Of a stretch of DNA of 35,586 nt, positions 3,754 to 29,998 are shown piece by piece. The stretch's first letter is position 1. Every line of letters begins with the position of its first letter. The DNA lies in NCBI GenBank assembly GCA_949841045.1, contig CATKXS010000014.1:1-35586 (forward strand), given 5' to 3'. The stretch is from an uncultured Clostridia bacterium. GTDB taxonomy: Bacteria > Bacillota > Clostridia > Christensenellales > UBA1242. The position numbers were made by a program, and so were the translations under genes. The notes under the pieces are model-generated. The model worked only from the letters and a program-made list of their open reading frames with translations, had not been told where the DNA came from and did not search any database.

Positions 3754-4608
3754 ATGAATTACAAAAATTTACAGAAATTTATTAAGAAAAACCGCGATTT
3801 CTTTGAAATTAAAGTGATTGGAAAGTCAGTTTTAAATAAAAACATATATGCAATCAATAAGGTGTTCGACCCAAAAAATGAATGGGCGCTTCTCACTGGA
3901 GGCATTCATGCGAGAGAACATCTTTCATGCGATTTTCTTTGTCATTACATAGAAAAACTTAAAAGTATTCCTTTTCTAGAGTATAATATTTCTTTTGTTC
4001 CGCTTATTAATCCTGACGGGGCAGATTTTGCGGTAAATGGCATTGACAAGTATGACGACAAGATTAAAGAAAGGCTTATTACAATAAATGGAAGGGAAGA
4101 TTTTACGATGTATAAAGCAAACGCGAACGGAGTGGACCTTAATAATAATTGGGACGCCGATTTCAGCAAAAACTTTTCTCGAAAGAAGTCTCCGTCAAGT
4201 CAAGGGTTTTATGGATATTATCCTATGTCAGAGCCAGAGGTGAGGGCGCTAGAAGAGTGGACTTATATTTTATCGCCCTTTATCACGCTGAGTTTTCATC
4301 TCAAGGGAGAGGAGATATACTATGACTTTTTTCAAAAAAGAAAGAGAAAAAAGAGGGATGGTGAAATTGCGAAATTGTTTGCGGGTAGCACTGGTTATAA
4401 GATAAGGTCAACTCAAAATTTAAGTAGTGGTGGATATAAGGATTGGTGCGTGTCAAATTTAAAAATTCCATCTCTAACTATTGAACTTGGTGAAGACCGT
4501 TTTTCTCACCCTTATCCAAAAGAAGAACTTGCCAACATTTGTGCAAAACATAAATGCCTTTTTGAAAATTTAGCAAAAAGTTATGAGATAGTAAAAAAAT
4601 ATAGATAG
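3754..4608 (+). CDS. M14-family zinc peptidase, gamma-D-glutamyl-DAP endopeptidase-like
   Basis: A 284-residue protein of the M14 zinc carboxypeptidase family. The zinc ligands are H52 and E55 in GGIHAREH and H182 in SFHLKGEE; the catalytic glutamate is E244 in TIELGED. The substrate-site block NANGVDLNNNWD (residues 123-134) has Asn where carboxypeptidase A has the carboxylate-binding Arg, a change seen in endopeptidases that cut gamma-D-Glu-DAP bonds in peptidoglycan stem peptides. No signal peptide is visible, so it probably acts on imported muropeptides or inside the spore-forming cell. It has no recognisable ribosome site. A promoter for the next gene begins 3 bp after its stop, so it is likely transcribed alone. 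Confidence 0.88.
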   Translation: MNYKNLQKFIKKNRDFFEIKVIGKSVLNKNIYAINKVFDPKNEWALLTGGIHAREHLSCDFLCHYIEKLKSIPFLEYNISFVPLINPDGADFAVNGIDKYDDKIKERLITINGREDFTMYKANANGVDLNNNWDADFSKNFSRKKSPSSQGFYGYYPMSEPEVRALEEWTYILSPFITLSFHLKGEEIYYDFFQKRKRKKRDGEIAKLFAGSTGYKIRSTQNLSSGGYKDWCVSNLKIPSLTIELGEDRFSHPYPKEELANICAKHKCLFENLAKSYEIVKKYR

Positions 4609-6553: not shown

Positions 6554-7093
6554 TTAATTCTTAAAGTATCTGTCAAGAAGACCTTTGAATGCTTTGCCGT
6601 GTCTAGCTTCATCTCTTGCCATTTCATGAACTGTGTCATGGATTGCGTCAAGGTTTAATTGTTTTGCAAGAGAGGCAAGTTCAACTTTACCAGCAGTTGC
6701 ACCATTTTCAGCTTCAACTCTCATTTCGAGATTTTTCTTTGTTGAAGGAGTGACAACTTCACCAAGAAGTTCAGCAAATTTTGCTGCGTGTTCAGCTTCT
6801 TCGTAAGCGGCCTTTTCATAATAAAGACCAACTTCAGTATAGCCCTCTCTATAAGCAACACGGCTCATAGCAAGATACATTCCAACTTCACTGCATTCTC
6901 CATTGAAATTGGCTCTAAGTCCTTCAAGGATTTCTTTTGGAGCGTCTTTAGCTACGCCAACTACATGTTCAGCCTTCCAAACAAGAGTCTCTGCTCCTTG
7001 CTCTTTCATTTGAGCTCCGCAAACAGGGCAGTTTGCTGGTGGATTTTCGCCTTCATGAACATAGCCACATACTGGGCAAATATATTTTTTCAT
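6554..7093 (-). CDS. Reverse rubrerythrin (N-terminal rubredoxin domain), peroxide/oxygen detoxification
   Basis: A 179-residue protein with the rubredoxin-type iron site at the N-terminus (CPVC at residues 6-9, CPVC at 22-25), followed by a four-helix ferritin-like di-iron domain with E-x-x-A/H motifs ([19 protein letters not shown]). This domain order is the reverse of classical rubrerythrin and typical of clostridial reverse rubrerythrins, which reduce hydrogen peroxide, and oxygen, to water with electrons from NADH-dependent carriers in the cytosol. The ribosome site AAGGAG lies about 10 nt before the ATG. It is divergent from pcrA. The gene implies an anaerobe exposed to occasional oxygen. 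Confidence 0.95.
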
Positions 7094-7124
7094 AAAATTT
7101 TTCTCCTTTTATTTTACAACTTAA

Positions 7125-7153
7125 AGTATATATCTTTTTAAAAAATAAATCAA
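7125..7153 (-). promoter_or_regulatory. Sigma-A promoter of the rubrerythrin gene
   Basis: On the minus strand: TTGATT (7153-7148), a 17-nt spacer and TATACT (7130-7125). No clear PerR-type palindrome was seen next to it. Confidence 0.65.
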
Positions 7154-7185
7154 ATTTTTTAATGAAATTTCTTTATATTTTTTAG

Positions 7186-7214
7186 TTTACTTTTTAGGGA
7201 GTTTTTGATATAAT
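7186..7214 (+). promoter_or_regulatory. Sigma-A promoter of pcrA-ligA, next to the start codon
   Basis: TTTACT (7186-7191), a 17-nt spacer and TATAAT (7209-7214). The A of the pcrA ATG is the eighth base after the -10, about where RNA synthesis should begin, and there is no ribosome site between. Confidence 0.8.
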
Positions 7215-7221
7215 TTTACTT

Positions 7222-11442
<4,221 letters not shown>

Positions 11443-11444
<2 letters not shown>

Positions 11445-11475
11445 ATCGCTGAAAAACTCGGCGATTTTTTCTTTT
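11443..11475 (+). terminator. Terminator of pcrA-ligA
   Basis: AAATCGC and GCGATTT arms (7 bp) around an 11-nt loop, followed by a T-run. The left arm overlaps the ligA stop codon. Confidence 0.8.
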
Positions 11476-11484
11476 AATGCTATA

Positions 11485-11514
11485 TTGACTTTTAGTCTAA
11501 TTATGTTATATAAT
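11485..11514 (+). promoter_or_regulatory. Sigma-A promoter of the four-gene gluzincin-like operon
   Basis: TTGACT (11485-11490), an 18-nt spacer and TATAAT (11509-11514). Transcription would start near 11521, leaving a leader of about 55 nt. Confidence 0.8.
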
Positions 11515-11576
11515 AAATATAGTATTTTTATTGCATAGTGCAGTCGAAATTGTTTGCAAATTTAAGCGAGGTTAAA

Positions 11577-12968
11577 ATGACAGAAATAAAAGGACCTCTC
11601 GGAGCTTCCAAGAAAGATTTAATTGAACTGTTTGTAGAATTTTATGGCGAAGAGCATAGAGAGAATATAACTGAAAACATAAACAATACCTTTTTTATTT
11701 TTACCTCACGTTTATATCTTTTCGATGGACAAAATGGCAAAAATAAAATCGAAGACGACATTGTAATGAATCTTCAAAAACATATTGACTTTCAATCAAA
11801 GAAATTTGCGGTTGATATTTTAATGGAAGCTTTTAAAATTGAGAATAATAGTGAAAATCTTGAAAAACTTTGGAATATTGCTCCAGATTATTTAAAGCTC
11901 CTTACAAAGAACAAAAATTTTTATGATGAATATGATGAAAACTTATTAAAAGATTTTCAAAGTAAAATGCTTGAAATAGCGGCAAACAAGAAAAAGGGAG
12001 CAATTCCTCGTAGCTACAAAAAGGCAATGGATTATGTGTTCAATGGAGGCACAAGGCATTATCTTCTTGACCAGTTTAATGCAGTAGTAAGTAAATTTAG
12101 CAAAAGTTTTGAATCTCAAAAATATCTAATGGGGCTATATGAAAAGATTGATAAAGAGGACATTTTCTTGGCAGAGGAGATAAAAAATTATATAAGCGAT
12201 TTTGTCATGGGTGACAAAGGTGAGTATGGCGGCTCTATGTTTATTACGACAAGCAAAAGCTTGCCAAGCCAAGTGAAAAGTGTTTGCGTTATAGACAAAT
12301 GTGGAGAACTGAGTGATTTAAGTTTTATTCATGAAGTAAATCACATTGCCTCAGCGGCAAGCTGGCTTAAAATTGACGATGCAGAGCGAAAAAGATATTA
12401 TGTGAAAACTGGATACTGCAAACAATATTTTTGCGTTGAAGAATATTTGACAAACGAAAGAGAAGACTCATGGCAACAATATGACGGCATAAACGAGGTC
12501 GTCAATGACTATCTCGCAACCAAGATTTTTAAATTAGCCGAAGACAAAGGGGTGAAGTTTGGAAGAGGGGAAAGTAGGCCGTCATTCTATTCTTTTGCCT
12601 TTCCTATATTTGAAAACTTTTTTGAAGATAATTTAGAACTTTTAAAGGAAGCTTATATTTCAAAAGATAACCTTGCTTTTGCAAAAGCTATAGGAATTGA
12701 GAATTTTGAAAATCTTGCAAATTTATCGGTTGAGATTTTTAAATTTGAAAGTGGACATAGAACGATAAATAGGGAAATTCGAAAATATTATTCTTGCTTA
12801 AATAGTGATTTGTTTAAAATCGCAAAAGATAAAAGCGTAAAACCGAAAAATAAAGCTATGAGAAAATATTTGAGTTTTTTTGAAAAAGGCGAAAAAATAT
12901 TTAACGATATTTATGAAGAATTAAAAGGTAAAAATGATTATGAAGTGGCCGACAATAAAAGAATTTAA
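11577..12968 (+). CDS. Gluzincin-like putative metalloprotease, paralog A
   Basis: A 463-residue protein of no family I recognise by name. Residues 252-256 are HEVNH and, 49 residues later, NE (306-307) starts NEVVNDY. HExxH followed at this distance by NExxxD is the zinc signature of thermolysin-type gluzincins: two His and the second-motif Glu bind zinc, and the HExxH Glu is catalytic. The N-terminal block FYGEEHREN...NTFFIF (residues 23-42) is shared with the three genes behind it. There is no signal peptide or membrane segment, so it should be cytosolic. The start is the ATG at 11577, preceded by GAGG; an upstream GTG-type extension to 11538 lacks a ribosome site. It overlaps paralog B by 35 nt. 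Confidence 0.8.
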   Translation: MTEIKGPLGASKKDLIELFVEFYGEEHRENITENINNTFFIFTSRLYLFDGQNGKNKIEDDIVMNLQKHIDFQSKKFAVDILMEAFKIENNSENLEKLWNIAPDYLKLLTKNKNFYDEYDENLLKDFQSKMLEIAANKKKGAIPRSYKKAMDYVFNGGTRHYLLDQFNAVVSKFSKSFESQKYLMGLYEKIDKEDIFLAEEIKNYISDFVMGDKGEYGGSMFITTSKSLPSQVKSVCVIDKCGELSDLSFIHEVNHIASAASWLKIDDAERKRYYVKTGYCKQYFCVEEYLTNEREDSWQQYDGINEVVNDYLATKIFKLAEDKGVKFGRGESRPSFYSFAFPIFENFFEDNLELLKEAYISKDNLAFAKAIGIENFENLANLSVEIFKFESGHRTINREIRKYYSCLNSDLFKIAKDKSVKPKNKAMRKYLSFFEKGEKIFNDIYEELKGKNDYEVADNKRI

Positions 12969-14445
12969 TTTAAATAATCCGATTGAAGGAAAACTTGATG
13001 ACATAATCAACTATTATGTCAAGTTTTATGGTGAAGAATTTAGAGAACGAATTTCAGATAAGATTGTGAATACATTCTTTATCTTCTTTAATCGTGCAGA
13101 TATAAAATATAAAGACAGCATTGATAAACATTATAAAGAAATTTTTAATGACAAGGCTCTGCCAAAAGAAGGACAAGAATATTTTGAATATGAGAAAAAA
13201 ATCGTGCTAGATTATTACGAAAAATTACCAACCCAGCAGTTTTGCAGAGAATACGAGACTGCCAAGAATAAACTTTTAACCGATTTCATATTTGAAAATT
13301 TGGGAATAGAAAGTACTGAAGAAAACATTTCAAAAATTACAGAGCTTCTGCCTGTTTATGAATATTTTGTTTCTTTTTCCTCAAATTTAAATCTTGAAAA
13401 AAAGCCAAAAATATTTAATGATTTGTTTGATGGACTTGCGTCTTTAAGTTCTGATAAAGAGAAAATAGAAGAAGGACTTAAAACCTTGAGCGACATTAAT
13501 GCAACAAGTAATATAAGGCGAGAGCTTGATAAACTTAACGAAAAAAAGATAATCAGCATAGTAAACGCAAGTCAACTGCCAGAAATAACAGATTATTTTG
13601 AGAGGCTAGATATAGTTTGTAAAGAAGACATTTTGTCTGCTGTTTCAAGTTATTTATTGCATGGTTTGGCAAAGACAATAGGTTTAAACTGTGCAACGGC
13701 AAGCAAACTCAAGCCTGGAAAAACAATTTGTATATGTTTAAATAATGACACTATAAATTTAACAGACGATGTATTCGTGCACGAACTTAACCATTCAGTG
13801 ACTTCTACTACCAGTTTTGAATGGGGCGTAATTACTAAAGATGTAGGTTTTTGTAGAGATAAAAACTTGGAAGATAGTTATGTTTTATTCCAAGATACTA
13901 ATTGGCAACAATTGGAAGCGTTTAATGAAGTGGTGAATGAATATTTTTCATTGGGTGTACTTGCTCTCATGGAGAAAGATAATTTTAGAATTGGCTTTAA
14001 TCGCAATTCATTTTCTGCATATAGAATTCCGCTTAGATTATTTAAGAACTTTTTTGACAAGAATATTGAAGTATTAAAGCGTTGTTATATCAATAATGAT
14101 TTGAAAGGTTTTGCCTCTTGTGTAGGCAAGCGAAATTTGAATAGGCTTATCACTCTTGCTACCAACATGTTGAATTTTTCAATAAACTTTCCAGAGGAAG
14201 AAAAAATCTTAATGCAAATTTGTCAAAATCTAAATGAGGATTATGATACTGTTGATATGGTTAAACTCTTAAACGATAAAACTATAACATTGACAGAAGC
14301 TTTCAAAAAAGATGAAAATTTAAAGAGATTTATGAGCTTTTATAGGGAAGCTGACGAAATTTTTAAAAATATAGATGAATTTCAGGCCAAAAGAAATGTT
14401 GTTGAAAATGGGGGAGAGGTGGCTGATGAACGAGAAGATTATTAA
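12934..14445 (+). CDS. Gluzincin-like putative metalloprotease, paralog B
   Basis: A 503-residue paralog of the preceding gene. The zinc signature is HELNHSVTS (H283, E284, H287) and, 43 residues on, NEVVNEYFS (N331, E332). The N-terminal family block is FYGEEFRERI...NTFFIF (residues 31-51). The region between (about 90-240) is helical and varies most among the paralogs. The ATG at 12934 lies 5 nt after an AGG site; a second ATG at 12940 is possible. The 35-nt overlap with paralog A and the 20-nt overlap with paralog C indicate one operon with translational coupling. It is cytosolic by sequence. Substrate unknown. Confidence 0.8.
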   Translation: MIMKWPTIKEFNLNNPIEGKLDDIINYYVKFYGEEFRERISDKIVNTFFIFFNRADIKYKDSIDKHYKEIFNDKALPKEGQEYFEYEKKIVLDYYEKLPTQQFCREYETAKNKLLTDFIFENLGIESTEENISKITELLPVYEYFVSFSSNLNLEKKPKIFNDLFDGLASLSSDKEKIEEGLKTLSDINATSNIRRELDKLNEKKIISIVNASQLPEITDYFERLDIVCKEDILSAVSSYLLHGLAKTIGLNCATASKLKPGKTICICLNNDTINLTDDVFVHELNHSVTSTTSFEWGVITKDVGFCRDKNLEDSYVLFQDTNWQQLEAFNEVVNEYFSLGVLALMEKDNFRIGFNRNSFSAYRIPLRLFKNFFDKNIEVLKRCYINNDLKGFASCVGKRNLNRLITLATNMLNFSINFPEEEKILMQICQNLNEDYDTVDMVKLLNDKTITLTEAFKKDENLKRFMSFYREADEIFKNIDEFQAKRNVVENGGEVADEREDY

Positions 14446-15439
14446 ACCTTTATCAGCTATTGATTCTATTTCTGACAAACTTGACAGTATCAAAGAAGAA
14501 TTCGTACTCTTCTATGGTGAAAAATTTCGAAAGGAAATTACAGAAAGAATTGAAAATACCTTATTCATTTTTGTTAATCCTTATGAAAGTGAAGAGGAGT
14601 GTGCGGAGTTTATTGATATGGTAAAGGTTAAGTTTGCGAAATATCAATTTCTTTCTGAAAATTCAATCTATAAAAACATAAAAAGTTTTAAGGAAAATAC
14701 ATTTAAGAATGGGAAAAATACTTTGGCAGAAGGAGTTTGTCTTGCGACAATAAGTAGATTAAAGTTAAATAAGTGCTACTCAATAATTTTATTGCCAACA
14801 AAAGACAGGCTTTGTGACCAAGTATTATTCCATGAGCTTAACCATGCTGTTACAACTTCAAGTAAACTTTTGAAAGATACTTTTGAAATCAATGTTGGGT
14901 TTTCAAGTCAGCGTGGGAAGGCGGCAGAATATAACAAAGAAAATTGGTATAATGTGGTACCTTTTACAGAAGTAATAACCGATTATTTTGCATGTGCAAT
15001 TTATGAGAATGCCAAAAAGAATGGAATAAAAATTGGTGAGAAGGGTGATGAAAATATTTCATACAAATCTGTTTTCCCTATGCTTGAACCTTTTTTAGAA
15101 GAAAATTATGAATTAATCAAAAATTGTTTTATAGAAAATAATCGGCAGGGAATTATAAATGCTGTTGGTAAAGACAACTATAACAAACTAGTTTTGCTTA
15201 CATATTATATGCTTGATTTCTGCCAAGAAAATGGCACAACTTATAATTTTTATAAATCTATATGCGAAGAAGAGGGCGAGGATATTGATATTTTTGAATT
15301 TGCATATGATTATAAAGGTGACAGCACTATCACTAAAAATTATTTAAATATATTTAAACAGGCAAGAAAAATCTATGATGATATTTTAGATTATAAAATT
15401 GAAAATAGTAAATATGATGATGGGAAAGATTTAGTTTAA
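14426..15439 (+). CDS. Gluzincin-like putative metalloprotease, paralog C (short form)
   Basis: A 337-residue paralog, shorter because most of the helical middle region is missing. It keeps the N-terminal block FYGEKFRKEI...NTLFIF (residues 29-49) and the zinc signature HELNHAVTT (H136, E137, H140), with the third ligand in TEVITDYFA (E182), where the usual Asn is Thr. The start is the ATG at 14426, preceded by a GA-rich ribosome site (GGGGGAGAGGTGG); in-frame codons upstream back to 14375 lie within paralog B and lack a site. Because it is short, it may define the minimal catalytic unit of this family. Confidence 0.8.
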   Translation: MNEKIIKPLSAIDSISDKLDSIKEEFVLFYGEKFRKEITERIENTLFIFVNPYESEEECAEFIDMVKVKFAKYQFLSENSIYKNIKSFKENTFKNGKNTLAEGVCLATISRLKLNKCYSIILLPTKDRLCDQVLFHELNHAVTTSSKLLKDTFEINVGFSSQRGKAAEYNKENWYNVVPFTEVITDYFACAIYENAKKNGIKIGEKGDENISYKSVFPMLEPFLEENYELIKNCFIENNRQGIINAVGKDNYNKLVLLTYYMLDFCQENGTTYNFYKSICEEEGEDIDIFEFAYDYKGDSTITKNYLNIFKQARKIYDDILDYKIENSKYDDGKDLV

Positions 15440-15456
15440 AATTAGGAAGTGAAAAA

Positions 15457-16617
15457 TTGCAATTACGAAAATTAAAGAAAATGAAAAATGTTTACAATCC
15501 ATTGCAGGGGAAATTAGATAAAATCAAAGATTATCTAATAGGCTTTTTTGGTGAAAAATATAGAGAAGTCATTGAAGAAAGGCTTAATAACACCTCTTAT
15601 ATTTTTTGTGAAAATAAAGAAGATGATGAACTTGTAAAGTATTTTGATAAGGCAATTTTAAGAAAATTGACTGATTTCGCAAGTATTTTTGATAAAAAAT
15701 TTAAATTTTGCGGTGAAATAGAATCTACAGAACAATTTTTGTTGCATTTAGAAAATCTTGATAAATGGATTAAAAAAACGGAAGAAGAAGACTATAAAAG
15801 CATAAATAATTTTTTATCAAAGATTGAGTTTAAAAACGTTATTTCTAAAAATGACACCATTGAAGATATTTTAAAAGACAAGGAGAAAGAAAAGCTTTTT
15901 TATAGCGCTATAAGTGAAATTAGCGAGGCTTATAAAGCGGGTGTCAAGGGTGAAATCGAAAAGATAAAGAAGCAAGAGTATAACATGGTTTATAAAAACT
16001 GGGAAGAGGATACTCTAAAGTTAAAAAGAGAATTGAAGCTTGACGTTTGCGACATTATTATAAAGTCATTAAAAATTCCTTTTACAGAGGAGAATGTAAA
16101 AATAATCTCAAAACATGCTGACGCAGTTACTAATTATTATAAAGACTGGTCGCCATCAGTTTATGATGAGAAGAAATTTATTATGGCGACAGACGAACTG
16201 ATGAAAATTTCAACTTTAGATTTGCTGGAATTTGAAAGGGTGTTAGATGTTCTTAAATATGACATTATGTTTAAGGTTAACGAATTTAATACAAAAGAAT
16301 ATGCCTTAAAAAATGGTTTTGCTTTTGCAAATAAAATGCTTGAAGAAAATTTCAGTGAGAACATCTCAAATGAAATGAAAAAGTCTTTAAATAATAATAA
16401 GACTCAGATTGAATGGGAGGGATTTAATGGCTGTGTTGATTACGCGATAGAGGGCGATAATTTGCAAAGAGTTTGCATTGTGGGCGCGGGTTCTTCTCTT
16501 CAAAATATCACCATTATTCATGAAATTTGCCATGCCGTTCAAATGAGTGGCCATGAAAAAAAATGGTGCATACTTTATGAAAACGGGTGTCTTAGTTGCA
16601 AACAAAGAAGCTGGTGA
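15457..16617 (+). CDS. Gluzincin-like paralog D, N-terminal fragment (frameshifted)
   Basis: This frame encodes 386 residues: the family block FFGEKYREVI...NTSYIF (residues 30-50), the helical middle region, and the zinc motif HEICHAVQM (H355, E356, H359). It then runs into the A8 tract at 16556-16563, after which the translation (WCILYENGC...) no longer resembles the paralogs and stops. The family sequence continues in another frame at 16547-17134. Removing one A joins both parts into a protein of about 558 residues. The TTG at 15457 is chosen for its AGGAAGTG ribosome site; an ATG at 15481 matches the paralog N-termini but has no site. As read, the gene is broken. Confidence 0.75.
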   Translation: MQLRKLKKMKNVYNPLQGKLDKIKDYLIGFFGEKYREVIEERLNNTSYIFCENKEDDELVKYFDKAILRKLTDFASIFDKKFKFCGEIESTEQFLLHLENLDKWIKKTEEEDYKSINNFLSKIEFKNVISKNDTIEDILKDKEKEKLFYSAISEISEAYKAGVKGEIEKIKKQEYNMVYKNWEEDTLKLKRELKLDVCDIIIKSLKIPFTEENVKIISKHADAVTNYYKDWSPSVYDEKKFIMATDELMKISTLDLLEFERVLDVLKYDIMFKVNEFNTKEYALKNGFAFANKMLEENFSENISNEMKKSLNNNKTQIEWEGFNGCVDYAIEGDNLQRVCIVGAGSSLQNITIIHEICHAVQMSGHEKKWCILYENGCLSCKQRSW

Positions 16618-17134
16618 AACAAAAGAAATTAATAATAACTTAACAAACTTAAATGAAGTTTTAAATGAGTATTTTTCTCTTAGCATTTTAAAGCAGATGA
16701 AAAATGACAATTTTGAGATAGGGCCAAAAGGTTTTGATATAGGTCCTTGTCATTATAGAAGTCCATTCATATTTTTGAAAGACTTTATAAAAGATAATTT
16801 GGCTACGCTTATAGATGTTTGTATGAGCGAAGATAAAAATCAAATTTATGACGCCTTTGGCAAAGAAAATCTTTTAAAACTTGATAAGAAAATTGAAGAA
16901 TTATTTAATTTTTATATCAAACAATGCGGGTGCAAGAAATATGAAAAGTCACTTTCTAGGGCGATTGAAAATGTAGGTGGGAGAGATGAATTTTATAAGC
17001 TTGTTAAAGAGGGAGAAATAAAAGGCTCTCAAAGCTACAAAGAATATCTTGACTTCTTTACGGACTTTTATGAGCTTAACTTAGAATGCGAAAACTATTC
17101 AAAACGTGACAAGCTTTGTCATGAGTGTGAATAG
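16547..17134 (+). pseudogene. Gluzincin-like paralog D, C-terminal fragment after the frameshift
   Basis: This frame continues the family fold after the A8 tract: GVLVANKEAGETKE, then the third zinc-ligand motif NEVLNEYFS, placed 39 residues after HEICH once one A is removed, and the helical C-terminal region shared with paralogs A-C. It opens with GTG at 16547 or ATG at 16553 but has no ribosome site, so it is unlikely to be translated alone. Without this part the N-terminal fragment lacks its third zinc ligand. An operon terminator follows 9 bp after the stop. Confidence 0.75.
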
Positions 17135-17142
17135 AGAATTAA

Positions 17143-17167
17143 AGGCGCAAAAAAATGCGTCTTTTTT
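17143..17167 (+). terminator. Terminator of the gluzincin-like operon
   Basis: AGGCGCA and TGCGTCT arms (7 bp, one wobble) around six A, followed by a T-run. Confidence 0.85.
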
Positions 17168-17190: not shown

Positions 17191-17219
17191 TTGACAAAGA
17201 AATTACTATTTGATATAAT
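17191..17219 (+). promoter_or_regulatory. Perfect-consensus sigma-A promoter of the str operon
   Basis: TTGACA (17191-17196), exactly 17 nt, and TATAAT (17214-17219). All 12 consensus bases are present, as expected for a highly expressed ribosomal operon. RNA should start near 17226. Confidence 0.92.
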
Positions 17220-17225
17220 ACGGGA

Positions 17226-17705
17226 GTATGCTTCGTTGTCGGAGGCGGTGCTTTTAATTGTGCTATGCACAAGTAGGGCAGAAACAAACAGCAGGTGAGT
17301 CAGTCTTGCCGATTTGCAAAAAGTTGCAAAGTTATGTTTAACATAATCGTGCTGTTCATGTTTTACAAACCAAAAAGCATTTTTTATGCGCATGACGACA
17401 CAGACAACATACGTCATGCGTTTTTTAAATTCGCAAAAACACATCGTACTACGGCGTTTCTGTCAAGTGATATCAGATAGTCACGTACATTTCAGTACGC
17501 TTCAAAACTATTGGGTACCCTGCAAATCGTGAGATTTGTAGGGAGAGGAAAAGCCAAGCGATAGTAAACCGTAAAAGCATAATTTATGCTTGAGGTTTTA
17601 GAGCATGTGCTTTGACGATGCTGAGCCTTGTATTACTCGGTTTTTGTAAATTTAATAGACAAAGCAAAAATCACTCTAACACATTAGAGTTAAAAGGAGA
17701 AAACT
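17226..17705 (+). promoter_or_regulatory. Long structured 5' leader of rpsL with internal terminator
   Basis: About 480 nt without a credible gene. Hairpins seen, in order: TTTGCAA/TTGCAAA around 17311-17329, TTATGT/ACATAA around 17332-17346, the terminator-like hairpin at 17389-17426, CGTAC/GTACG near 17483-17499, an 11-bp stem with a GTGA (GNRA) tetraloop at 17518-17543, AAGCAT/ATGCTT near 17576-17592, and ACTCTAA/TTAGAGT at 17673-17690 just before the AAAGGAG site. Conditional termination (attenuation) is inferred; no known riboswitch or r-protein leader class is recognised. Confidence 0.7.
17389..17426 (+). terminator. Internal terminator (putative attenuator) in the rpsL leader
   Basis: CGCATGACG (17389-17397) and CGTCATGCG (17412-17420) form a perfect 9-bp stem followed by six T. 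A GCAT...ATGC pairing just upstream (17377-17389) could compete for its left arm. It lies about 165 nt into the transcript and about 280 nt before rpsL. Confidence 0.75.
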
Positions 17706-25921: not shown

Positions 25922-28900
25922 ATGTCAAAACAAAAATCTAAATTCAAAGGTATTTTTAAGGGAGCGGCTATTGGCTTCGCTTTTGTTATGTGTGCATCTT
26001 TCTTTCCAGCTCACGCAATTGCAAGTGCAGTTGATATGGTAGGAAAAGACAATATCTTATTAAATACAATTAAAGTAGATGGTCAATCAAATTCTATGAC
26101 TGTTAAAAAGGGTGAGTCTGTTACAATCCCAGAAGGCGTTTATGAATATGAAAACGCAGGTGTTAAGGCTACTCATACAATTGGGCAAACTTCAACTGAC
26201 GGAATTGAATCACGAGTTGATGTTTACTATAAGGCGACTGGTGACAAACTTGACGTTAAAGACAACAAATTTACAGCAGATAGAGTTGGTAGATATACAA
26301 TCACTTATACTGTAAAACATGGGGATAACACTTATTCTTATGACTTTGTTGTTAGAAGTGAAGTAGGAGAGGCTACTTTTGAATTTGCTTCAAATAGCGA
26401 TAAAATCATTCCAACAGTTTATGACACTAAACTCACAGACAAGAATATAGAACTTCCTCTTCCATCAGTCAAGTCTGGTGATGATGAACTTATTTCTGCC
26501 GAAGTTGGCAATTTCACTCTTAACAAAGAGGGTAATCAAAAAGATTTCGTTCTTGTTAGCCTTGCAAATGTAAGCAAAGATAGTGAGGGCAATGATTTAA
26601 TTAAAATCAACCCAACTAAAGTAGATGAAGAGGTTGTTGGTTATCATCTTTCAGCGTCTGACCTTAAAAAGGCAGAACTTGCTGGACAAGATATAACAGT
26701 TATCTATTCTTATTATCAAATTGCAGAAAATGGAAGTATCGTTTTTGTTGATTCAACAAGTAGAACATTCTCAATTTCAAAAGCGAAGGGTTATTATTTC
26801 ATGACAAGTTCTGATAATGCAGAACAAGGCTATGAACTTGAAACAAGTTGGTCTTCTTCAATTTCAGACATTTCTGCTGTCGTTGGTGTTGAAAGAGAAC
26901 TCCCAAAAATTACTGCAAAAACGAAATCTACAAACAGTCCTTCAAATGAAACAATTGAAATCAGCTATGATATTCAAATTTTCAGAAAAAATTCAAGTGG
27001 AAAATGGGAAGAAATTACTGGTGACGATAAAAAAGCTGTAATGCCAGAATTTGGTACATTCAAAGCTGATGCAAAAGGTTCATATAAGTTTGTTTATACT
27101 GTAAACGATTTCTATGGTTATGGCGATAAAATAAGTGAAACAAAGAGAAGCTTTGAAATTTCAAATGTTAAAGATACAAGAGCAGCTAACGTTTACGTTT
27201 ATGATGCTGGCTTGATTGACGATGAAGGCAATCAAATTGCTTATGATGAAGAGAAAAATTCATATACTAGTGCATTAAATATGCTTAAGAGTCAAAGTGG
27301 AAACAGAAATATCGTTATGTATGCCGTTGGCGGTACTGATAATATGATTGATAAGGATGACCTTACTTTAAGAAGAACTATCCTTGACAATACTGGTATC
27401 ACAATGTTTAACATTGATGAAAAGTTATATCATAACTACAACTTAATCTTTGCTCCTGGTCTTAGTCAAGGTGCTGGTGATAATGCTTCAGTTTACAAAC
27501 AAATAGTAGATGACAATTATCAAATCATGAAACAGATGAGATTTGAGAATAAAGATATTACTTCAGAATCTGCCATCAAGGCTTTCTTAAAAGAACACAA
27601 CTATTTATTAGTTACAACTGATGAAGATAAAGCGACTGAACTTGTTAGCGACTTTGATGCAACAAATGAAGAAAAGGTTAAAGAACTTATTGCTACTGGA
27701 TATGCTTATGTAAAACCTTCTAACTCAAAAAGAACAACTTTCACTGATGGTACTTATACTTTTGTTTATGGTGCAAAAGATGAGGACAATACTGAGACAA
27801 CAACTCGTCAAACAATGGTTATTTCTGAAGGATATACAGATGCTTCTGTTCCAACCCTCAATTTCACAAATAGCCTTCAAGTGACTTATCTTACTTCTGA
27901 TACAATTGAATTTAACGTTGCTACTGCAACCGATTCATCATCTCAAGATACAAGACTTGAAACAGTAACAGCTTATAGATTTCTTAATGATAAAAATGAG
28001 ACTGTTACAAATTCTCAAACAACTTCTGTATTAAAATATCTTGCTACAAATGTTGGAACAGGTGTTTCTTCTAAATGGTATGGAGAAGTAGGTAAAGTTT
28101 ATAATGAAGAAGGTTGGTATATTGATGATACAAAATCTACTTATACAATAAACCTTGCTTCTAGACCACAAAATGCAAAATATGTTGAAATCTTAGCTTA
28201 TGCTATTGACGACTACGGCAATGCAGGCTTCTACAACAGAATTATTACAATTGCAGAAGTAAACGATACAAAAATGCCTGAAATTTTCAGAGCAGTAAAT
28301 GTTCCAGACGGCAAAGTTATTGATGCTCCAAAGGAAGTTACTCTTCCAACGCTTTACTTTACTGATGACAATGTTGATTACATGTCAGCTCAAGTAAATG
28401 TTTACAAGATTGTTGATGGCGAAAAAGTGTCAATGCAAGTGTCAAATGTACAAACTGAGTTCAATACTCTTCAAGAAACATTTATGGTTAAAGCTGGTAC
28501 TTTCCGTGCTTCAACTGATGGTGAATATCAGGTGGCTGTAACAGTCACTGACGCTGGAAATCATAGCGTTACAACTTATTTCCACTACACAGCAAAAGGT
28601 GGTTCTGTTCTTGTTCAACCAGAGATTTCAAATATTACTTCTGAAACAATTGAACTTGATGCAGGAAAGGCTTATTACCTTGTTCCTCCTACAATTTCAG
28701 TACTTGATAATAATAACTATGGTTATATTGGAATAAGTGATGATGATTCAAGAACTGCAACAAACTATACTACAACTATTGTTTCTGCAACTGACGATTA
28801 TGAACTTACAAAATATTACTTTACAGGAAGCAAGAGTGGTGTATTCAAACTTCAATACAAAGTATATTTAATGCAATATTCTAAAGACAGTAGTGTCTAT

Positions 28901-29998
28901 GCTGAAAGTGCAACTTTAAATAAAGTTTATCTTGAAAATGGTAAATTGAAATATAAGACAAATAATGGCGAATATTTCGTATTTATCAGTGAAAATGCAG
29001 ATGGTCAATATGTACTTGATGCAAACACTTCACTTCAAGGTGATGGAACAACTATTGGAAGCACAGATTTGACAAACCTTCAAAAGATTGTTAACGTTTA
29101 CACTATTTTAAGTAAAGTTCAAACAATCAATGTTGGTGGAATAGATATGAATATCACTATTGATGACAATATCTACTCTAAGGCTTATACTCAACTTGGA
29201 GAGGAAGTCCCAATTGTTAAACCAAGCAACATTGAATACAATGCTCCTGGTTATCAAACAAATACTAAAGACTCAACTGTTACTATTACAAGAACCATTG
29301 GAAATACAACAACAACTCTTGCTACTTTGAATTTTGCAGATTGGGAAAAGGATGTCCCAACTGGTAGCGATGACGTTAAACTTAACGATAAGGAAGAAGT
29401 TATTCTTGCTCTTAATGACAACGGCAGATATACAATCAAATATTCTGTTCAAGCAATGGATAAGAATGGCTTAAATGTTGGTTCTCCAAAGACTGTTGAA
29501 TATACTATTAAAAATGGTGACGTTGTAGGCCCTACAATCGAACTTGCAAAGAATCTCGTAAACGCTAAATATAAACTTGGCGACACATTATCTCTTAATA
29601 TGGCTGGTTTAACTGTTTCTGACAATGTTACAACTGATGTTAATGACTTATTGTCAAACATGACAGTTAAAATTAGGAATAATGACCAAGACGATAGTTA
29701 TACAACTCTTACTAATACTGGTGATGCCGAAAATAACGAATATGTTTACACACACAAACTTGAAAGCGCAGGAAGCTATACTTTAACTATTACAATTAAA
29801 GATAAAGCTGGCAATGAATCATCTCAATCTGTTTCATTCGAAGTTACAACTGATGACAAGAAAGAAGTCAATGTAAAAGAAGTAATGGGCGGAGTTCTCA
29901 TTGGGCTTTCAGTTGCAATACTTGCAGGCGTTGTAATCTACTTCGTAGTAAGCAAAGTTAAACTTGATAAGAAAGAGAAAAAATACAAAGACAAATAA
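25922..29998 (+). CDS. Large membrane-anchored surface protein with Ig-like repeats
   Basis: A 1358-residue protein. The N-terminus has a Lys-rich start, a hydrophobic segment (GAAIGFAFVMCASFF) and a cleavage-like AHAIASA around residue 35. The long outer part is rich in Thr, Ser, Asn and beta-strand patterns, with repeated segments such as GTFKADAKGSYKFVYTVNDF, GTFRASTDGEYQVAVTVTDA and AGSYTLTITIKDKAGN, the closing strands of bacterial Ig-like or cadherin-like domains (at least four, about 100-130 residues apart in places). The C-terminus is one membrane helix (about 1321-1343) and a 15-residue Lys-rich tail; there is no LPxTG sorting signal. It is probably an adhesin or structural surface protein, monocistronic with its own promoter and terminator. 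Confidence 0.85.
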   Translation: MSKQKSKFKGIFKGAAIGFAFVMCASFFPAHAIASAVDMVGKDNILLNTIKVDGQSNSMTVKKGESVTIPEGVYEYENAGVKATHTIGQTSTDGIESRVDVYYKATGDKLDVKDNKFTADRVGRYTITYTVKHGDNTYSYDFVVRSEVGEATFEFASNSDKIIPTVYDTKLTDKNIELPLPSVKSGDDELISAEVGNFTLNKEGNQKDFVLVSLANVSKDSEGNDLIKINPTKVDEEVVGYHLSASDLKKAELAGQDITVIYSYYQIAENGSIVFVDSTSRTFSISKAKGYYFMTSSDNAEQGYELETSWSSSISDISAVVGVERELPKITAKTKSTNSPSNETIEISYDIQIFRKNSSGKWEEITGDDKKAVMPEFGTFKADAKGSYKFVYTVNDFYGYGDKISETKRSFEISNVKDTRAANVYVYDAGLIDDEGNQIAYDEEKNSYTSALNMLKSQSGNRNIVMYAVGGTDNMIDKDDLTLRRTILDNTGITMFNIDEKLYHNYNLIFAPGLSQGAGDNASVYKQIVDDNYQIMKQMRFENKDITSESAIKAFLKEHNYLLVTTDEDKATELVSDFDATNEEKVKELIATGYAYVKPSNSKRTTFTDGTYTFVYGAKDEDNTETTTRQTMVISEGYTDASVPTLNFTNSLQVTYLTSDTIEFNVATATDSSSQDTRLETVTAYRFLNDKNETVTNSQTTSVLKYLATNVGTGVSSKWYGEVGKVYNEEGWYIDDTKSTYTINLASRPQNAKYVEILAYAIDDYGNAGFYNRIITIAEVNDTKMPEIFRAVNVPDGKVIDAPKEVTLPTLYFTDDNVDYMSAQVNVYKIVDGEKVSMQVSNVQTEFNTLQETFMVKAGTFRASTDGEYQVAVTVTDAGNHSVTTYFHYTAKGGSVLVQPEISNITSETIELDAGKAYYLVPPTISVLDNNNYGYIGISDDDSRTATNYTTTIVSATDDYELTKYYFTGSKSGVFKLQYKVYLMQYSKDSSVYAESATLNKVYLENGKLKYKTNNGEYFVFISENADGQYVLDANTSLQGDGTTIGSTDLTNLQKIVNVYTILSKVQTINVGGIDMNITIDDNIYSKAYTQLGEEVPIVKPSNIEYNAPGYQTNTKDSTVTITRTIGNTTTTLATLNFADWEKDVPTGSDDVKLNDKEEVILALNDNGRYTIKYSVQAMDKNGLNVGSPKTVEYTIKNGDVVGPTIELAKNLVNAKYKLGDTLSLNMAGLTVSDNVTTDVNDLLSNMTVKIRNNDQDDSYTTLTNTGDAENNEYVYTHKLESAGSYTLTITIKDKAGNESSQSVSFEVTTDDKKEVNVKEVMGGVLIGLSVAILAGVVIYFVVSKVKLDKKEKKYKDK

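Follow-up and report, generated by a model that had tools for sequence, protein, structure and literature searches.

Within the window, the 35,586 nucleotides of DNA from an uncultured Clostridia bacterium analysed here, lie three intact genes and a frameshifted fourth copy encoding members of what, on their sequences, appears to be an unnamed peptidase family. We call it FAM, a working name for the protein family of the window's HExxH genes. A second unnamed family, c0, a protein of about 101 residues, accompanies FAM from genome to genome. We give an even chance to the reading that FAM proteins are cytosolic gluzincin-type zinc endopeptidases restrained by c0 as a shared inhibitor; the inhibition, the proteolytic activity and the targets are what we infer. 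Two families without a name are thereby described, one of apparent peptidases and one of partner proteins, and inhibition by the latter is open to test.

The array lies between ligA and rpsL, with all of its features on the forward strand. Gene 1 (11577-12968; 463 residues from an ATG start, a GTG at 11538 being also possible) encodes HEVNH at 12330-12344 and NEVVNDY at 12492-12512. Gene 2 (12934-14445; 503 residues), the product of which was modelled, encodes HELNH at 13780-13794 and NEVVNEY at 13924-13944, and gene 3 (14426-15439; 337 residues), a short form missing most of the helical insert, encodes HELNH at 14831-14845 and TEVITDY at 14966-14986. Genes 1 and 2 overlap by 35 nt and genes 2 and 3 by 20 nt, and the spacing from the second histidine to the glutamate is 50, 44, and 41 residues in genes 1, 2, and 3, respectively. 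Profile searches and BLAST showed that genes 1-3 and the fourth copy are paralogs and hence the motif is not due to chance. The original prediction of four paralogous genes having a zinc signature is borne out by the three intact reading frames, but the fourth is not open. The first piece of copy 4 (15481-16617, the listed reading frame beginning at TTG 15457) contains HEICH at 16519-16533, whereas NEVLNEY (16652-16672) lies in a second piece read in another frame (16547-17134, the listed GTG start being mechanical). As the two motifs are in different frames, copy 4 is no open gene in the present assembly and the predicted protein of about 558 residues is obtained only if the pieces are joined; we kept them apart. 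A run of eight A (16556-16563) lies within the overlap of the pieces, and the frame break may be due to mutation, assembly error or slippage. Decay is as likely as a programmed frameshift, because other genomes also hold broken copies (a split copy in G043, scraps with stops in G058 and a copy with six stops in G365).

Terminator-like hairpins follow ligA (11443-11467) and copy 4 (17141-17164), and a promoter-like site, TTGACT-18-TATAAT (11485-11514, 11 of 12 consensus positions), precedes gene 1. Hence, sites are present at both ends of the unit proposed to have its own promoter and terminator, but all are consensus matches only and the promoter-like site is weak evidence, because the region has 43 such sites versus 28.3 in shuffled sequences. 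Among the neighbouring genes, LigA, RpsL, RpsG, TlyA, DAK, HtrA, and SecA were named by eye from translations without a family search, PcrA/UvrD, EF-G, EF-Tu, SpoIVA, and M14 of the window were named from Pfam, and the AAA-M41, FtsK_gamma, LRR_5, and ASCH proteins were named by domain search rather than by eye.

Profile searches of fetched loci gave 44 FAM open reading frames, 40 of which were aligned (alignment A1; two copy 4 pieces, a 142-residue piece and a frame cut by the locus end were omitted, and one 404-residue piece of a split copy was retained). In public bacterial genomes, a scan found 29 loci containing 57 FAM open reading frames, some of these loci being the same genome places as in the first set, and 55 of the 57 were aligned with the three window genes (alignment A3; both pieces of the split copy were omitted). 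The aligned proteins share 16-27% identity with gene 2, and the H, E, H, G, and E residues are invariant in 40/40 rows of A1 and 58/58 rows of A3. The full set of invariant A3 residues (gene 2 numbering) is Y32, G33, E34, R37, I40, H283, E284, H287, G305, and E332, and includes a YGExxRxxI motif present in all 58 members. As predicted originally, the pattern is that of the gluzincins (clan MA(E)), HExxH plus a downstream glutamate, with H283, E284, H287, and E332 found in 58/58 members; the window copies carry E-xxx-(D/E) at that glutamate, and the wording of the motif as HExxH plus an ExxxD-like glutamate is from a passage of PMC7726476.

The failure of the original prediction to place these proteins in a named family was also upheld. 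Pfam, NCBIfam, and PADLOC gave FAM no name, the matches being weak, spread out and attributed to chance. No Pfam M4 match was obtained for the window proteins at E <= 1, and for 40 FAM members neither M4 nor any convincing domain was present among the weak Pfam families listed (25 of 57). A PADLOC scan of six proteins (genes 1-3, two c0 proteins and one c17 protein) matched no defence model; a Cas5_IIIg match to residues 12-123 of gene 3 (E 8.1e-4) was judged to be chance. Searches of FAM and c0 profiles against solved structures returned only chance-level helical or unrelated chains, and a narrow set of terms retrieved no description of the FAM family from the open-licence PMC literature. By hydropathy alone, neither a signal peptide nor a transmembrane stretch was seen in any of the 40 A1 members (best 19-residue mean <= 1.59), in keeping with the predicted lack of a secretion signal. 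This does not decide M4 membership, because protealysin is also called intracellular in a passage of PMC9505478.

The model of the gene 2 protein (pLDDT 90.8, pTM 0.90) has strands at residues 250-257 and 264-271, the HExxH helix at 278-289 and the glutamate helix at 324-348. HExxH and the glutamate are therefore placed on consecutive helices as in gluzincins, but the fold matches are middling in strength. The best 20 rows include known zinc peptidases: Pz peptidase A (3ahm, rank 1), collagenase H (7zoc, rank 10) and oligoendopeptidase F (3sks, rank 20), and the model aligns with these M3/M9-type gluzincins over 178-184 residues. The short FAM forms (331-337 residues) keep the core strands, the HExxH helix and the glutamate helix, and in this may resemble the minigluzincin/M48-like minimal scaffold, the C-terminal helical part of which differs from that of FAM.

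Two more intact FAM copies (C5:51459-53147 and C15:15389-16849), overlooked by the original prediction as was c0, lie elsewhere in the window genome (1.16 Mb in 34 contigs, 95% complete). Of the 29 public loci, 27 belong to MAGs with Clostridia or Clostridiales in the title (one being Candidatus Caccopulliclostridium gallistercoris) and two are from Bacilli MAGs. A FAM match was found in 19 of 112 genomes of the same genus, in six of 396 genomes of an order sample (four of 142 genera, all within one bacterial family; G343 has a remote relative only and G365 carries stops) and in one of 398 genomes of a phylum sample, that one being the window genome. As found, FAM sequences seem confined to small-genome Clostridia plus two distant Bacilli MAGs, and the carriers are apparently a small group of gut-dwelling bacteria. 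A phage or plasmid origin was rejected: tblastn gave no match for the FAM protein of locus L040 in 50,697 phage records or for gene 2 in 72,556 plasmid records, and none of 36 IMG/VR stretches that fit a pattern encodes a relative. The fetched rpsL stretches of 18 same-genus genomes lacking FAM contained no FAM reading frame (18/18) and ligA was recognised beside rpsL in eight. These stretches also gave no match to c17, a protein encoded at the start of four arrays, which was discarded as a general partner because it occurs at four loci only.

Neighbour clustering gave c0 as the sole recurrent small neighbour of FAM, at 20 of 41 loci including the window. The c0 gene is upstream on the same strand and overlaps the FAM gene by 7-26 nt in 19 of the 20 linked loci, the exception being a locus of the window's own genome (L009), where c0 is 103 nt upstream of FAM on a contig other than that of the window. 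In that genome, G000, the c0 gene occupies C5:53251-53556. Four further linked loci have overlaps of 1 nt (L117) and 4 nt (L121) or gaps of 44 nt (L094) and 69 nt (L118). Among the 112 same-genus genomes FAM occurs in 19, c0 in 19 and both in 18 (Fisher p 1.3e-18, ignoring phylogeny). In the single FAM-only genome (G058) FAM consists of the scraps mentioned above, in the single c0-only genome (G054) a 447-residue LRR protein ends in the c0-like stretch, and the genomes of the genus that lack FAM yielded no full c0. The association is not only linkage, because three of the 18 genomes (G010, G038, and G118) carry c0 and FAM on separate contigs. G010 and G038 have a lone c0 between tlyA and DAK and their own FAM array at ligA-rpsL; the tlyA-DAK site holds both c0 and FAM in five genomes (G000, G043, G047, G056, and G114).

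Usually there is one c0 per genome beside up to about nine FAM loci, although two whole c0 genes are found in G115 (each adjoining a FAM gene) and in G182 (one on either side of a FAM gene). The 14 genomes reached via FAM loci include 12 Clostridia, all having c0, and two Bacilli, one (G184) with only a c0-like domain in a 165-residue protein having a hydrophobic N-terminus and the other (G185) in which c0 was not found. This set is not independent of the other samples, because five of the 14 share coordinates with genomes of the genus sample and G182 shares them with G385 of the order sample. Alignment A4 comprises 19 of 20 c0 proteins, one cut by a contig end being omitted. Over 18 of the 20 pairs of c0 and adjacent FAM (L009 and L071 omitted) the distances correlate with r 0.78, a value reached in 0 of 2000 permutations, the species tree being uncorrected.

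The FAM copies are of old origin, some of them are broken, and their divergence outpaces that of the neighbouring genes. Between matched genomes, neighbouring genes are 60-100% identical (n=15, at least 86% in 11), FAM orthologs 33-60% in nine of ten comparisons and 81% in one, and c0 64-79% (n=4). In the same genome pairs c0 versus FAM identities are 79% versus 45-56% (three pairs) and 64% versus 33% (the fourth). The dN/dS ratios are 0.13-0.36 for eight FAM pairs, 0.00-0.11 for seven neighbour pairs and 0.08-0.09 for two c0 pairs. With dN/dS below 1 in all eight FAM pairs and dS near saturation in most, the ratios speak for faster evolution under constraint and no more, not for positive selection. 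In seven of the eight pairs the catalytic core is better conserved than the helical insert, and conservation is highest over the N-terminal 55 residues in six. In a tree made by a quick method (75 rows, SH-aLRT support only, with a program warning on several long branches) the copies are not grouped by genome, and window copies 1-3 cluster with three copies that G043 carries at the same ligA-rpsL site (SH-aLRT 96). Recent tandem amplification was rejected on the basis of this tree. The original interpretation as a whole is supported in part.

Because FAM proteins lack a signal peptide and any obvious propeptide, we consider that their activity would be held off by c0. HExxH and the later glutamate would bind zinc and the proteins would cut other proteins, with the helical insert, usually the most variable part, helping to choose substrates. 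The c0 protein, whose synthesis would directly precede that of a FAM protein, would hold the latter inactive and would also act in trans on the other FAM copies of the cell. Some trigger would then free the proteases or let them outnumber c0, and the freed enzymes would cleave a small number of cytosolic proteins, a conflict or a stress response being the most likely setting.

The strongest rival reading, although a rather unlikely one, is that c0 delivers substrates to FAM, as an adaptor, activator or folding partner. The c0 model (pLDDT 95.1) is a small alpha/beta protein with Mago nashi, a protein-binding protein, as its best fold match, followed by the SSI/sermetstatin inhibitor fold. The strongest stand-alone c0 outside FAM genomes appears to share an operon with an FtsH-type AAA-M41 zinc protease, and proteases of this class use adaptors; c0-like domains also occur in larger proteins, one fused to an FtsK-gamma-like domain. 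These observations fit an adaptor, but the antidote-first gene order with its overlap, the usual single c0 whatever the FAM number and the recurrence of SSI-type inhibitor folds in the match list argue for inhibition, with which the pairing with a zinc protease also agrees. Of the 19 best fold rows, eight are SSI-type inhibitors; they come from three proteins and include sermetstatin in complex with snapalysin, a metallopeptidase. The SSI family (I16) comprises inhibitors of secreted proteases in Streptomyces; the c0 model is similar to sermetstatin, SSI, and SSTI over 77-82 of its 101 residues at 10-12% identity, Mago nashi being higher by Z, and no sequence signature common to c0 and these inhibitors was found. 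The c0 matches in Pfam, NCBIfam, and PADLOC were weak and scattered and were treated as chance, and a distant c0 of G434 had no match in the phage or plasmid collections.

That FAM proteins are effectors delivered to rivals or a host by an unusual route, with c0 as the immunity protein, seems improbable. Fast divergence and the pairing of a protease with an immunity-like partner would suit such a role, which the protealysin authors propose for their own pair in a passage of PMC9505478. However, the 40 members have neither a signal peptide nor a transmembrane stretch by hydropathy, their listed weak Pfam families (25 of 57) include no convincing domain, no secretion genes were recognised by eye (without a profile) among the recurrent neighbours, although a gene that looks SecA-like by eye adjoins the stand-alone c0 of G118, and one constant c0 serves many divergent copies, unlike one-to-one effector-immunity pairs. 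We hold equally improbable the view that FAM proteins are ordinary lineage-specific peptidases of peptide turnover and c0 a co-inherited neighbour having no direct role. The restriction to one bacterial family in our samples and the possibility that both genes descend from a common ancestor are consistent with this view, but c0 persists away from FAM in three genomes, a full c0 is absent from FAM-less genomes of the genus and the dN/dS excess over the neighbouring genes is unusual for housekeeping turnover. Despite the weak fold matches, it is very improbable that FAM keeps the zincin fold without being a peptidase, for instance as a zinc-binding regulator, given that the HExxH glutamate, which zincins require for catalysis and not for zinc binding, is invariant in 58/58 members.

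Inhibition by c0 could be taken further, to a conserved inhibitor that alone restrains a growing, rapidly diversifying and lineage-specific gluzincin set, such that many proteases differing in specificity are set free together when an intruder disturbs the inhibitor or the dose changes. We think this extension unlikely; if true, it would mean a protease-based immunity or cell-arrest system in genomes of about 1 Mb and a new inhibitor family, also paired with an AAA-M41 protease. If c0 inhibits at all, many divergent gluzincins would be blocked by one protein of about 100 residues, a new scaffold for metalloprotease inhibition in an unusual many-to-one poison-antidote arrangement. That bacteria with little over 1 Mb of DNA have up to about nine loci for fast-evolving cytosolic proteases raises the question of the targets.

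Like type II toxin-antitoxin modules, FAM-c0 has the small gene first, a short overlap and a putative active part seldom found without its partner, but differs in having a large protease as the active part and usually one c0 for many copies. A second likeness is to protealysin-emfourin of Serratia proteamaculans, described in a passage of PMC9505478 as an intracellular metalloprotease and a small dedicated inhibitor encoded in one operon, with emfourin binding the active-site region of protealysin and a competition or regulatory role proposed for the pair. The Emfourin family (PF20242) gave no match to eight single c0 proteins or to 19 c0 members at E <= 5 and was found in 0/21 genomes; emfourin is absent from the c0 fold list, which says nothing either way. 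By profile there is thus no kinship, FAM lacking an M4 match and c0 an Emfourin match. If c0 inhibits, FAM-c0 would by analogy work like protealysin-emfourin, but with the putative inhibitor gene upstream of, and overlapping, the protease gene and usually one such gene for many protease copies.

One copy of the unnamed family of predicted cytosolic gluzincin-type zinc proteases, at 7058-8842 of locus L081 and 7538-9319 of locus L079, has a dS of 0.61 between these two genomes, whereas their ligA has a dS of 1.48. Because the protease copies are the less diverged at synonymous sites, we read this pair as a product of recent exchange or gene conversion. Four genomes have the order ligA, c17, protease array, c17 being a small protein of 154-169 residues with a hydrophobic stretch (L062 733-1242, L069 5496-5960, L079 3362-3835 and L081 4691-5167). 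It is absent from the interval between ligA and the protease array in the window.

Downstream of that array, a perfect TTGACA-17-TATAAT consensus match (17191-17219) lies upstream of rpsL, and the 480 nt between them (17226-17705) gave a folding z score of -5.7 relative to shuffled sequences, none of 100 being as good. This segment is possibly a structured leader of the rpsL operon; an Rfam search of the region gave only matches below the cut-offs. Elsewhere the window encodes an M14 zinc carboxypeptidase (3754-4608), a 1358-residue protein with a weak, below cut-off bacterial Ig-like match (25922-29998) and the sporulation protein SpoIVA (1291-2802), retained in this 1.16 Mb genome.

In five loci (L065, L076, L078, L082 and L085) the unit of c0, the putative inhibitor partner, and protease is followed by mutually related large ORFs of at least 1386-1866 residues, all of which run off the locus end; the one inspected by eye has a lipoprotein-like N-terminus. 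A stand-alone c0 occurs in genome G434 (contig C30), within an apparent operon (L156 2877-8567) that also encodes an AAA_2-AAA-M41 zinc protease (950 residues), an FtsK_gamma protein and an LRR_5 protein; this genome belongs to a different bacterial family of the same order. In genome G331 (L158 3888-4640) a c0-like domain is fused behind an FtsK-gamma-like domain, the latter a weak Pfam match.
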